Shown here: one piece after another, positions 1,900-22,007 of the stretch | How positions within the stretch are numbered: the first letter of the stretch is position 1 | Layout: the number at the start of each line of letters is the position of its first letter | NCBI RefSeq assembly: GCF_002868735.1 | Contig: NZ_CP025613.1 | Span: 558,001 to 622,000, forward strand | DNA from: Niveispirillum cyanobacteriorum | Lineage (GTDB): Bacteria; Pseudomonadota; Alphaproteobacteria; Azospirillales; Azospirillaceae | Direction: 5' to 3' | Length of the DNA stretch: 64,000 bases | Translations under genes and position numbers: made by a program | The notes under the pieces: model-generated | Told to the model about the DNA's origin: nothing | Seen by the model: the letters and a program-made list of their open reading frames with translations, nothing else | Database searches by the model: none

Positions 1900-4179
1900 A
1901 TGACCAAGTCTCAACTGACGCTGCGCGCTGTGCTGCTGGCCGGTGCTGCCCTTGCCACGGCCATGCCGGCTCTGTCGCAAGAACTGATGCTGGAAGAGAT
2001 TGTTGTGACGGCGCGCAAGCGGGCAGAGAGCCTGCAGGATGCCGCCGTCTCCGTCAGCGCCTTCACTGCCGAGGGCCTGCAGCGCGCGGGGATCGGCGAT
2101 GTGCTGGAGGTGGTGAACCGGGTGCCCGGCTTCACCATGAATGCCGACAACGCGACCGAACCGAACATCTTCATGCGCGGCATCGGCACCGACATTGAAA
2201 GTGCCGCCAGCAGCCCCGCCGTCGGCTTCTTCCTGGACGATGTCTATCTGTCCCGCGCCCAGGGCACCAACCTGGAACTGTTTGATTTTGAACGGATTGA
2301 GGTGGTACGCGGGCCGCAGGGCACGCTCTATGGTAAGAATGTCGTGGGTGGCGCCGTCAACTTCATTACCAAGCAGCCGACCGAGGACCAGGACACCGTC
2401 GCCGAAGTGTCGGTCGGCAATTACAGCTTTCTGCAATTCCGCGGCGCCACTGGCGGTGCACTTGCCGACAATCTCTATGGCCGCATTGCCTTCTCCGCCC
2501 GTGGCCGCGACGGCTTTGCCTATAATACCTTCACCAAGAATGATGTGGAGGACCTGTCCTCCATGGGGGTGAAGGGCGCGCTGCGCCTTGTCGCATCCGA
2601 ACAGCTTGAAGTGACGGCATCGGCCGATTTCTCCCGCCGACGCAGCGACGGCCGCTGGATCGACATGGTGATCCCATCGGCCCACAATGTGCCCTTCAAG
2701 AACCCCGACCCGCGCAAGGGTCCCAACAATGTGGATGGGCGTCAGCATTCCGATGTCGGCGGCGGCAGCATCAAGGCAGTGTGGAGCCTGGAGAATGGCT
2801 CCATCACGTCGCTGACCGGCTATCGCGAGGCGACGTTCGAGGACAAGAACAACGATGCCGGTTCCTATCTGGACATGGACAAGCTACTGCGCGACGCCAA
2901 TGGCCGCATCCAGTTCGGCAAGATCGACCGGTCGAAGTTCAATGATGATTTCTACATCAACGCCAAGACCGAGGATGTGAAGACCTTCAGCCAGGAGTTC
3001 CGCTACAGCTCCGACTTTGACGGTCCGTTCAATGTCATGGCCGGCCTGTTCTATATGGGTGAGGATATCGGTCGTAACGAAGATGCCGATTACATCTTCG
3101 TCGATTACTTCGCGCAGGGGCGGGAGACGGCCCGCACCACCGCCAAGGGCGACACCTGGTCGGCCTTCGTCGAAGGCACCTGGGCCGTGACCGATACGCT
3201 GAAAGCCATTGGCGGCGTGCGTTATACCAAGGATATCAAGAAGTTCACGGTGGCCCGCGCCGCCTTCGGCGATTTCCTGGGTCAGGATTTCGAGGATGCG
3301 CAGGGCCGGCCCACCACGGCCTTCACGGCGGGTGACAAGCACACCTGGTCAGCCTGGACGCCCAGCGCCACCCTGCAATGGAAGACCAGCGACGATGTCA
3401 TGCTCTATGCAACCGTCGCCAAGGGCTTCAAGAGCGGCGGTTGGAACGGGGAGAATGCCAACAACCCGACCGAAGCCGCCGTGCCCTACAATCCCGAATT
3501 CGCCTGGAACTATGAAACGGGCATCAAGTCGCAATGGCTGGACAACCGGCTGCGCCTGAACCTGACCGGCTTTGTCGCTGATTATAAGGACCTGCAGACG
3601 CAGCAATATGTGATTTTCAGCAGCTCCCTGCCGCCCGACAATGTCATCGCCAATGCCGGCAAAGCGCGGGTGAAGGGGCTGGAGCTGGAACTGCTGGCCG
3701 TTCCAGTGGAGGGGCTGACCCTGTCGGGTTCCTACGCCCTGATGGATGGCAAGATTACAGGCGATCTGATCAGCACGGCGCTGCGCTATGACCCGTCCTG
3801 CTTCTGCTCCAAGCCGGTGCCCACCAACCTGAAGGGCAACAAACTGCGCCGTACGCCCAAAAATTCGCTTTCGGCGGGCGCGCAGTATGAGTTCCCGGTG
3901 AATGAAAAGGTCAACGGCCTGATCCGCGCGGATTACAGCTGGACCGATGGTTACTTCTTCGAGAACGAGAACAGCGACCGCACCTGGAACCCGTCTTATG
4001 GTCTGATCGATGCCGGCGTCGGTGTCGTGGCCGATGATGGGGCCTGGGAACTGATGCTGTGGGGCAAGAACCTGACGGACAAGCTGTATACGGCGGGCAA
4101 GACCGACGTTATCGGCTCTGTCCTGGCCTCCTACGCCCCGCCGCGCACCTATGGCGTCACGTTGAAAGTCAAATTCTAA
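1900..4179 (+). CDS. TonB-dependent outer-membrane receptor
   Basis: A 759-residue outer-membrane transporter. The ATG at 1900 has AGGGGG 7 bases upstream and gives a clean signal peptide (residues 1-27, ending PALSQ). A TonB box (EEIVVTA) follows directly, then the plug domain (about 40-160, with VEVVRGPQGTLYGKN-type residues) and a beta-barrel ending in an aromatic residue (VKF). Such receptors import substrates too large or scarce for porins, using the TonB-ExbBD system. The nearby permeases and kynurenine-type enzymes suggest an aromatic or tryptophan-derived ligand rather than a siderophore, but ligand specificity is not readable from the sequence. It heads an operon with the next three genes. 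Confidence 0.9.
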   Translation: MTKSQLTLRAVLLAGAALATAMPALSQELMLEEIVVTARKRAESLQDAAVSVSAFTAEGLQRAGIGDVLEVVNRVPGFTMNADNATEPNIFMRGIGTDIESAASSPAVGFFLDDVYLSRAQGTNLELFDFERIEVVRGPQGTLYGKNVVGGAVNFITKQPTEDQDTVAEVSVGNYSFLQFRGATGGALADNLYGRIAFSARGRDGFAYNTFTKNDVEDLSSMGVKGALRLVASEQLEVTASADFSRRRSDGRWIDMVIPSAHNVPFKNPDPRKGPNNVDGRQHSDVGGGSIKAVWSLENGSITSLTGYREATFEDKNNDAGSYLDMDKLLRDANGRIQFGKIDRSKFNDDFYINAKTEDVKTFSQEFRYSSDFDGPFNVMAGLFYMGEDIGRNEDADYIFVDYFAQGRETARTTAKGDTWSAFVEGTWAVTDTLKAIGGVRYTKDIKKFTVARAAFGDFLGQDFEDAQGRPTTAFTAGDKHTWSAWTPSATLQWKTSDDVMLYATVAKGFKSGGWNGENANNPTEAAVPYNPEFAWNYETGIKSQWLDNRLRLNLTGFVADYKDLQTQQYVIFSSSLPPDNVIANAGKARVKGLELELLAVPVEGLTLSGSYALMDGKITGDLISTALRYDPSCFCSKPVPTNLKGNKLRRTPKNSLSAGAQYEFPVNEKVNGLIRADYSWTDGYFFENENSDRTWNPSYGLIDAGVGVVADDGAWELMLWGKNLTDKLYTAGKTDVIGSVLASYAPPRTYGVTLKVKF

Positions 4180-4194
4180 GCCAACGGAGGCCAC

Positions 4195-20482: not shown

Positions 20483-21015
20483 CCTATGGCCTGCCTCTGA
20501 ACTTCGCGAAATGGATTGAGGAGCATCAGCATCTGCTGCGCCCCCCGGTCGGCAATGCCCAGATCTGGTCGAACGCCGACTTCATCGTCACGGTCGTGGG
20601 CGGCCCCAATCAGCGCACCGACTACCATGTCGATCCGCTGGAGGAGTTCTTCTACCAGATCAAGGGCGACATGGTTCTGCGCCTGTGGATCGACGGCGCG
20701 CCAAAGGATGTGCCGATCCGCGAGGGGGAGATTTTCCTGCTGCCCCCGAATGTTCCGCATTCACCGCAGCGCCCCGTCGAAGGCTCGGTCGGCCTGGTGA
20801 TCGAACGGCAGCGGCCCGACGGTCTGCTGGACGCATTCCAATGGTACTGCGATGGCTGCGGCAGCATCGTCCACAAGGCGGAGGTGCAGTTGTCCAGCAT
20901 CGTCAAGGACCTGCCGCCGATCTTCCAGTCTTTTTATGACAGCGTGGAAAAGCGCACCTGCCCGTCCTGCGGCACCATCCATCCCGGCAAGGTCGCCAAG
21001 GCAGGTGCGGCATGA
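20476..21015 (+). CDS. nbaC: 3-hydroxyanthranilate 3,4-dioxygenase
   Basis: A 179-residue cupin dioxygenase that opens the ring of 3-hydroxyanthranilate to 2-amino-3-carboxymuconate 6-semialdehyde (ACMS). The Fe ligands His51, Glu57 and His95 are in place. The rubredoxin-like Cys pairs of bacterial enzymes, Cys125/Cys128 and Cys162/Cys165, are both present. GGGAGGG precedes the ATG, which lies inside the end of the deaminase gene; the stop overlaps the next start (ATGA). Its substrate is the expected product of the kynureninase encoded 7 kb upstream when acting on 3-hydroxykynurenine. Confidence 0.95.
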
Positions 21016-22007
21016 AAATCATCGACATGCACAGCCATTTCGTGCCGGAGAACTGGCCCGATCTGGCCGACCGCTTCGGCACGCCGCGCAACTGGCCCTG
21101 GATGCGTCATGAAGGCGGTGGCAAGGCCATGATCATGGTAGGGGAGGAGGAATTCCGCCCCATTGATGAACGCTGCTGGTCCGGCCCCGCCAAGCTGGAG
21201 GACATGGACCGCGACGGTGTCGATATCCAGATCATGTCGGCCACGCCCGTCCTGTTCGGTTACACGCGTCCCGCCGAACAGGCGCTGGATTGTGCCAAGC
21301 TGTTCAACGATGCCGCCCGCGACATCTGCGCCGCCGACCCGGCCCGCCTGAAATCGCTGTGTCAGGTGCCCTTGCAGGATATCGACAAATCCTGTGCCGA
21401 GGTCAGCCGCGCCATGAAGGATGGCCATGTCGGGGTGCAGATCGGCAACCATGTCGGGGAGAAGAACCTGGATGATGCCGGCATCGTCACCTTCTTGCAC
21501 CATTGCGCCGATATCGGGGCCCCCGTCCTGGTCCATCCCTGGGACATGATGGCGCGTGAACGCATGCCGAAATACATGCTGGCCTGGCTGGTCGGCATGC
21601 CGGCGGAAACCCAGCTGTCGATCCTGTCGCTGATCATGTCGGGTGCCTTCGAACGGCTGCCGAAAAGCCTGACACTGTGTTTCGCGCATGGCGGCGGCAG
21701 TTTCCCCTATCTGCTGGGTCGGGTCGACAATGCCTGGACCCACCGTGACATCGTGCGCAAGGATTGTCCCAACCTGCCATCTTCCTATGTCGACCGGTTC
21801 TTTGTGGACAGCGCGGTGTTCAATCAGGCGGCCCTGTCGCTGCTGGTCGCCACAATGGGGGAGGACCGGGTGATGCTGGGTTCCGACTATCCGTTCCCGC
21901 TGGGGGAACAGCGGGTGGGGGCGCTGGTGCGCGGCCATGACGGCTTGTCGGCTCCGGCCAAGGCCAAGATCATGGGCGGCAATGCCGCACGCTTCTTCGG
22001 TCTTTGA
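21012..22007 (+). CDS. nbaD: 2-amino-3-carboxymuconate 6-semialdehyde decarboxylase (ACMSD)
   Basis: A 331-residue amidohydrolase-fold decarboxylase. Zn ligands are His7 and His9 in MHSHF, His175 in VHPWDM and Asp292 in [10 protein letters not shown], with His226 in FAHGGG; spacing matches the Pseudomonas enzyme shifted by two residues. It converts ACMS to 2-aminomuconate semialdehyde and so diverts it from spontaneous closure to quinolinate. It is the last gene of the operon, overlapping the dioxygenase gene by ATGA, and is followed by a strong hairpin. Confidence 0.95.

Follow-up and report, generated by a model that had tools for sequence, protein, structure and literature searches.

The window, a stretch of 64,000 nucleotides of Niveispirillum cyanobacteriorum DNA (C3:558001-622000, contig NZ_CP025613.1, in an analysed genome of 6.05 Mb), carries at 1900-22007 a gene island in which enzymes of kynurenine-type degradation stand beside a protein of the LVIVD family. 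A sequence-only reading had described this island as TonB-dependent uptake, kynureninase and an aminomuconate pathway combined with unassigned enzymes, and the island is confirmed, since every gene type named there is present by Pfam or NCBIfam profile matches. The upper half (1900-15670) encodes a TonB-dependent receptor (TBDR), beside it four inner-membrane transporters of the SBF/BASS, MFS, TauE/SafE and SNF types, two aspartate-dehydrogenase-like proteins (AspDH1 and AspDH2), a VOC protein, a DapA-like protein, an FAH protein, kynureninase (KynU) and the LVIVD protein. The lower half (15687-22007) encodes the known pathway of 3-hydroxyanthranilate (3-HAA) meta-cleavage. The genes are given below, where "cutoff" for an NCBIfam model means its curated cutoff, and AAP38 is a strain of the Azospirillaceae, near Niveispirillum.

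1900..4179, + strand: TonB-dependent receptor, 759 aa (Pfam Plug, TonB_dep_Rec; 97% identity in AAP38)
4195..4965, + strand: AspDH1, divergent protein resembling aspartate dehydrogenases, ADPxxxxxxH motif lacking its His (Pfam Asp_DH_C; alignment)
4962..5855, + strand: SBF/BASS-type transporter (PF01758, 96.5 bits)
5852..7582, + strand: LVIVD protein, 576 aa, predicted beta-propeller (PF08309, 18.5 bits, just under the cutoff of 20.2; AlphaFold2 (AF2) model; Foldseek)
7677..8981, + strand: MFS transporter, aromatic acid:H+ symport type (PF07690; TIGR00895 best, below cutoff)
8982..9635, - strand: FAH1, FAA-hydrolase family, 217 aa (PF01557; NF007967 best, below cutoff)
9660..10655, - strand: TauE/SafE-type permease (PF01925)
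10706..11512, + strand: AspDH2, aspartate dehydrogenase family, motif His kept (NF009825, 341 bits vs cutoff 253; alignment)
11532..11972, + strand: VOC protein, 146 aa (PF00903)
12017..12904, + strand: DapA-family class I aldolase-like protein (PF00701)
12917..14152, + strand: kynureninase, KynU (TIGR01814, 264.5 bits vs cutoff 246.4)
14255..15670, + strand: SNF-type Na+ symporter, start perhaps at ~14321 (PF00209, NF037979)
15687..16604, - strand: LysR-type regulator, start approximate (HTH_1, LysR_substrate; TF_pcaQ best, below cutoff)
16818..18296, + strand: 2-aminomuconate / 2-hydroxymuconate semialdehyde dehydrogenase (TIGR03216, 825 bits vs cutoff 693)
18305..19069, + strand: DmpG-like protein, 254 aa, without RDG and HAHHN (TIGR03217, 124 bits vs cutoff 286)
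19069..19854, + strand: FAH2, 4-oxalocrotonate decarboxylase-like (top model TIGR03218, 4-oxalocrotonate decarboxylase, 220 bits, under its cutoff of 351)
20048..20482, + strand: RidA-family protein, presumed 2-aminomuconate deaminase (PF01042; 71% identity to a protein of the Cupriavidus metallidurans cluster)
20476..21015, + strand: 3-hydroxyanthranilate 3,4-dioxygenase, HAO (NF009763, 274.4 bits vs cutoff 220; TIGR03037 above cutoff)
21012..22007, + strand: presumed 2-amino-3-carboxymuconate semialdehyde decarboxylase, ACMSD (Pfam Amidohydro_2)

Profile scores and conserved residues indicate the identities of the standard enzymes. The HAO residues H95, R99 and E110 are invariant across 14 aligned sequences. 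ACMSD matches Amidohydro_2 only and no NCBIfam model, and its identity is presumed from that match, from 57% amino acid identity to the gene of a similar cluster in C. metallidurans and from its position adjoining HAO. KynU scores 445 bits to the solved kynureninase 1qz9. The DmpG-like protein, an island gene additional to those listed by the sequence-only reading, has lost in alignment the RDG and HAHHN motifs of full-length aldolases, which we take to be metal ligands, and is probably not a working aldolase; its dN/dS is 0.07. Profile scans of the island proteins recognised no hydratase, acetaldehyde dehydrogenase or competent aldolase within the island.

Strain AAP38 carries both halves of the island, and its DNA is 84.7-94.8% identical in the 18 genes that were compared. 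The two halves sit on two contigs that each end inside KynU. These breaks would be consistent with two nearly identical KynU copies, the situation seen in the genome of the window, where a second KynU with 96% protein identity to the island copy lies at ~888 kb on C3 (12621-13871 of stretch L082) and its 20 kb stretch holds no other island homologue. The dN/dS values against AAP38 range from 0.01 to 0.19 for 18 of the 19 island genes (all but KynU, inside which the AAP38 contigs break), suggesting that the odd genes of the island are maintained by purifying selection and are more than a chance assembly.

Linkage of the LVIVD gene to the 3-HAA pathway was followed in other genomes. The best 80 of 121 relatives from an LVIVD-similarity scan gave 77 distinct loci, and 10 plasmid loci added by choice (three via DapA/VOC and seven from 45 LVIVD records) brought the set to 87. 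Most loci are truncated, either ~10 kb away from LVIVD or by the end of the contig, and a locus was called linked when KynU, HAO or ACMSD was found at ≥35% identity within ~10 kb of LVIVD. By this measure 28 of the 77 scan loci are linked, or 34 of 87 with the added plasmid loci, representing 19 of 47 genus labels (assigned by hand), and the LVIVD loci of the scan spread over several phyla. As a control, 25 other proteins of the window gave four locus matches at ≥40% identity; below 40%, an ABC transporter was found in 28 loci and five other proteins in 1 to 3 each. A quick tree built from 93 LVIVD rows requires 17 changes of the linkage label, at least 13 of them forced by well-supported branches. 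Among plasmids, LVIVD and HAO lie 2.8-18.4 kb apart in all 24 records that have both among the matches listed (60 of 76 HAO records and 45 of 45 LVIVD records), 10 of the 24 being Phaeobacter and near-copies.

The LVIVD relatives in C. metallidurans, Burkholderia arboris and Diaphorobacter (54-55% amino acid identity) are accompanied by relatives of DapA, VOC and FAH together with 3-HAA pathway genes, at LVIVD-HAO distances of 2.8, 18.4 and 15.6 kb, respectively. In Streptomyces cyaneofuscatus, LVIVD adjoins KynU and a whole set from HAO to acetaldehyde dehydrogenase. An acidobacterial contig carries on one strand the order SNF-LVIVD-FAH-VOC-AspDH2-like-aldehyde dehydrogenase (ALDH)-HAO-ACMSD-KynU, with transporter and alpha/beta-hydrolase genes interspersed. 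In the sequence-only reading the LVIVD protein was just one of several odd items; it is in fact the best marker of the system.

The 10 kb limit labels some linked loci as unlinked, including those of B. arboris and of Phaeobacter, where KynU, HAO and ALDH lie just past the stretch in which the locus first seemed unlinked. HAO was found in 30 of the 34 genomes of locally unlinked loci (35 of 49 such loci), a count for which the control genomes lacking LVIVD came from the family of the window only. In that family, 3 of 81 genomes have LVIVD and 6 of 81 have HAO; the three LVIVD genomes belong to one genus and are all among the six. Another idea is that two unrelated catabolic units are neighbours by chance, with the upper one (from TBDR to DapA) serving another compound. 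Sphingomonas laterariae offers a case of this kind, with TBDR-AspDH1-LVIVD-MFS and no KynU or HAO within 10 kb, but its genome also has HAO, and the acidobacterial, Burkholderiales and Sphingopyxis loci mix members of both halves, so that we consider this explanation very improbable.

A co-occurrence check proposed with the sequence-only reading was borne out for part of the accessory genes. FAH, VOC and DapA recur near LVIVD in unrelated bacteria (50, 42 and 36 of the 87 loci), but the transporters and the two AspDH proteins are seldom found there (AspDH2 in 9, AspDH1 in 8, MFS in 6, TauE in 3, SNF in 2 and SBF in 1, namely AAP38). VOC relatives with 62-75% amino acid identity are found in LVIVD loci of the acidobacterium, Sphingopyxis and Brevundimonas, and DapA relatives with 40-48% identity in those of Burkholderiales; the acidobacterial AspDH2 relative shares 59% identity. 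The Burkholderiales neighbourhoods of LVIVD contain genes for a porin, GntR, an alpha/beta hydrolase, DapA, VOC, FAH and an NMT1-type importer, and those of Sphingopyxis and Brevundimonas contain TBDR, FAH, a thiamine pyrophosphate enzyme, ALDH and KynU. Gene orders in unannotated loci come from an ad hoc choice of open reading frames and may err in places. The recurrence of the accessory genes suggests a substrate with more than a kynurenine part, or a side product that has to be processed. In three loci of Gemmatimonadota and Latescibacterota (L096, L099 and L126), LVIVD and FAH share a gene order with a DMFA2-type protein and a PQQ-type propeller protein.

AspDH1 scores below cutoff with all eight NCBIfam AspDH models, and the motif His is also missing in the aligned Sphingopyxis and Sphingomonas relatives. 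In seven genomes of the family, AspDH2 has relatives with 53-57% identity that stand apart from other island genes, except for RidA at 31-33% identity (six genomes) and ALDH (one genome). DapA was rejected as an island marker on its own: it has matches in 23 of 119 genomes, and the 17 DapA loci from 16 of the 21 genomes besides the window's own and AAP38 hold at most one weak ALDH or LysR match.

The sequence-only reading had also noted the absence of tryptophan dioxygenase (TDO), formamidase, pentadienoate hydratase and acetaldehyde dehydrogenase. This holds for the island but not for the genome. TDO and arylformamidase are adjacent at ~950.5-952 kb on C3, outside the island, with TIGR03036 and TIGR03035 scores that exceed the cutoffs. 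The end of C2 encodes acetaldehyde dehydrogenase together with a full-length 4-hydroxy-2-oxovalerate aldolase, and C1:294685 holds a hydratase-like gene that scores 238 bits, below the cutoff of 409. The missing island genes were therefore rejected as a sign of a different pathway. For kynurenine 3-monooxygenase (KMO), the seven best-scoring of 20 genomic FAD_binding_3 matches were compared with the PDB. None of the seven was recognised as KMO; six match another family best, and the candidate nearest to KMO (L185) scores 76 bits to KMO vs 197 bits to another hydroxylase. With no KMO recognised, anthranilate is most likely the end point of the organism's own tryptophan breakdown, and the HAO branch would depend on a precursor that arrives from outside already hydroxylated.

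Ordinary tryptophan catabolism with scattered genes would explain the island differently: TDO and formamidase would feed KynU, an unrecognised hydroxylase would replace KMO and the extra genes would hitchhike. TDO, arylformamidase and the second KynU do share a contig with the island, the lower pathway is already known, and the island KynU is of the Pseudomonas fluorescens type discussed below. Besides the KMO result, however, the accessory genes recur in distant taxa, and TDO was found in only three of the 87 LVIVD loci, all of Vibrio (L148, L151 and L159), where it lies a few kb upstream of LVIVD; one of the three comes from a genome in which HAO was not found. We judge this explanation unlikely. 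In L148, TDO is followed by a 392-aa protein that by eye resembles class-V aminotransferases, with no NCBIfam match at E 1e-20.

It was also considered that AspDH2 and DapA, with an aldehyde dehydrogenase, form a second route that leads the HAO product into central metabolism without ACMSD. The 2-amino-3-carboxy-enamine end of the HAO product resembles iminosuccinate and would be a plausible AspDH substrate, and DapA would then perform the aldol cleavage. Cassettes of HAO, DapA and AspDH, mostly with a succinate-semialdehyde-dehydrogenase-like ALDH, occur in Ensifer, Shinella, Roseateles, Phaeobacter, Rhizobium, Chelatococcus and Ruegeria (L197-L201, L161-L163 and L135); no ALDH lies in the stretches of Ensifer adhaerens W2-B9 and Chelatococcus. 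These cassette stretches hold no homologue of ACMSD, RidA or FAH2, the rest of those genomes not having been searched for ACMSD. Rubellimicrobium has a similar set of HAO, DapA, ALDH, KynU and an AspDH-like match. The cassette suggests another lower route and is the best support for one, although not directly for the window, which carries the ACMSD branch. The DapA of Ensifer PDNC004 shares 60-75% amino acid identity with five other cassette DapAs but 32% over 159 aa with that of the window, and AspDH2 of the window shares 33-40% with the cassette AspDHs. Both proteins of the window fall outside the cassette subfamilies, and we doubt that this second route operates in the window's organism. 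A malonate semialdehyde route, raised by the PGAP name malonic semialdehyde reductase in Diaphorobacter and Ensifer clusters, was set aside as speculation and is not claimed.

The LVIVD protein is probably exported, its N-terminus resembling a signal peptide by eye, and its fold is predicted to be a beta-propeller. The Cupriavidus relative scores 29.5 bits with PF08309, and the AF2 model of the window protein has a pLDDT of 90. The best Foldseek match is 5hrm, a phosphotriesterase of Sphingobium (E 5.7e-15; next protein E 2.5e-8), with 13-14% identity and a root-mean-square deviation of 8.8-9.4. An alignment of the LVIVD protein with VIA-align put generic propellers on top, and 5hrm is not among its 50 rows. 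An LVIVD profile searched against the PDB gave one weak match to the phosphotriesterase; another match, to an unrelated protein over only ~75 residues, was taken as chance. Like the Sphingobium sp. TCM1 phosphotriesterase, its nearest solved structure by Foldseek, the LVIVD protein is a predicted beta-propeller, but the identity is low and, of the His residues that might belong to a conserved binuclear metal site, only H111 is invariant among 47 sequences; the phosphotriesterase function cannot be carried over.

Another possibility is that the LVIVD protein is no catabolic enzyme but binds oxidising aminophenols, such as 3-HAA and 3-hydroxykynurenine, in the periplasm or protects against them there. 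Aminophenols of this kind oxidise readily, and the one invariant His, with many invariant Arg and Lys, is unlike a classical His-rich metal site. On the other side, the nearest fold is that of a hydrolase, and the invariant acidic residues E193, D244, E397, E425 and E538 fit catalysis equally well. A binding or protective role is in our view improbable.

We consider, with a probability of roughly 0.45, that the island serves as one unit to catabolise a kynurenine-type compound from outside the cell. The most likely substrate is 3-hydroxykynurenine itself or a compound that sets it free, such as a conjugate or an ommochrome-type oxidised dimer. In this scheme the TonB receptor would carry the compound across the outer membrane, and the LVIVD beta-propeller, we infer, would act on it in the periplasm and so feed kynureninase. 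An inner-membrane carrier, the SNF type being the best guess, would import the aromatic amino acid, which kynureninase would cleave to 3-hydroxyanthranilate and alanine. HAO, ACMSD, the semialdehyde dehydrogenase, the RidA deaminase and FAH2 would convert 3-hydroxyanthranilate to 2-oxopent-4-enoate, and the hydratase, aldolase and acetaldehyde dehydrogenase encoded elsewhere would yield pyruvate and acetyl-CoA. AspDH1, AspDH2, VOC, DapA and FAH1 probably act on another portion of the same substrate or on a by-product of it.

Several observations weigh against this catabolic scheme. HAO was not found in 4 of the 34 LVIVD genomes (Algicola, Photobacterium and two Vibrio), and near LVIVD an identity of ≥40% is reached by only 12 of 50 FAH, 6 of 42 VOC and 2 of 9 AspDH2 matches. 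The fold search yields no substrate for the LVIVD protein. The case against a KMO in the genome depends on similarity to PDB entries, one of the seven compared proteins (L184) having no PDB match at E 1e-30 and the 13 weaker matches lying outside the comparison. The island KynU has W64 and Gly-Thr at 276-277, as in the P. fluorescens enzyme, at positions that presumably decide between kynurenine and 3-hydroxykynurenine. The P. fluorescens kynureninase prefers kynurenine, and a pocket of this type argues against a strictly 3-hydroxykynurenine-specific enzyme. The acidobacterial KynU (L092, 12262-13077) has a His at or beside the W64 position, as in the human enzyme.

The suggestion made from sequence alone, that the extra genes convert an imported, modified hydroxykynurenine-like compound or form a different lower pathway, is thus partly sustained: the lack of a recognised KMO, the recurring genes and the ACMSD-free cassettes favour it, but the standard genes found elsewhere, the differing DapA and AspDH subfamilies and the KynU pocket do not. 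A wider proposal, in which LVIVD is an unrecognised exported enzyme of a widespread kynurenine-pigment or conjugate route in several phyla, and some carriers use an undescribed ACMSD-independent lower pathway, is tentative, and we would sooner expect it to fail than to hold.

Outside the island, two small proteins to its left (27-1212 of the window) look by eye like prophage tail or fibre proteins, the first without a Pfam match, and a MacA-MacB-NodT-type tripartite efflux set (22124-26957) directly follows ACMSD.

A 3-HAA meta-cleavage pathway of tryptophan was reportedly described in Burkholderia cepacia J2315 by Colabroy and Begley in 2005. The island resembles it in the HAO, ACMSD, semialdehyde dehydrogenase, deaminase and decarboxylase steps, which end in pyruvate and a two-carbon unit. 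It differs in that the hydratase, the competent aldolase and acetaldehyde dehydrogenase are not part of the island, that no KMO was recognised, and that TBDR, LVIVD, AspDH, VOC and DapA genes are added. The nba cluster of P. fluorescens KU-7 is said to degrade 2-nitrobenzoate through a lower pathway from 3-HAA. The 2-nitrobenzoate cluster onb of Cupriavidus sp. ST-14 likewise has a lower pathway from 3-HAA and starts with a nitroreductase and a mutase, according to an excerpt of PMC5817917; an excerpt of PMC10143591 cites both Colabroy and Begley (2005) and the KU-7 nba work. The island shares this lower pathway with the onb and nba clusters, but has kynureninase instead of their nitroreductase, for which no match was found among the island proteins scanned.

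Collectively, the island places a known lower pathway within a conserved context that is apparently undescribed in the open-access literature, and to this context LVIVD, probably exported, is strongly linked. In that literature we found neither a description of an LVIVD-kynurenine system nor an account of bacterial recycling of conjugated or oxidised kynurenine-type compounds. Animals and microbes commonly produce kynurenine-type compounds, among them hydroxykynurenine, ommochromes and hydroxyanthranilate. The cassettes that lack an ACMSD branch may represent new ring-fission chemistry. LVIVD, which tracks 3-HAA catabolism from Acidobacteriota to Streptomyces, provides a direct, testable entry point and may be a missing entry step of kynurenine-type catabolism.

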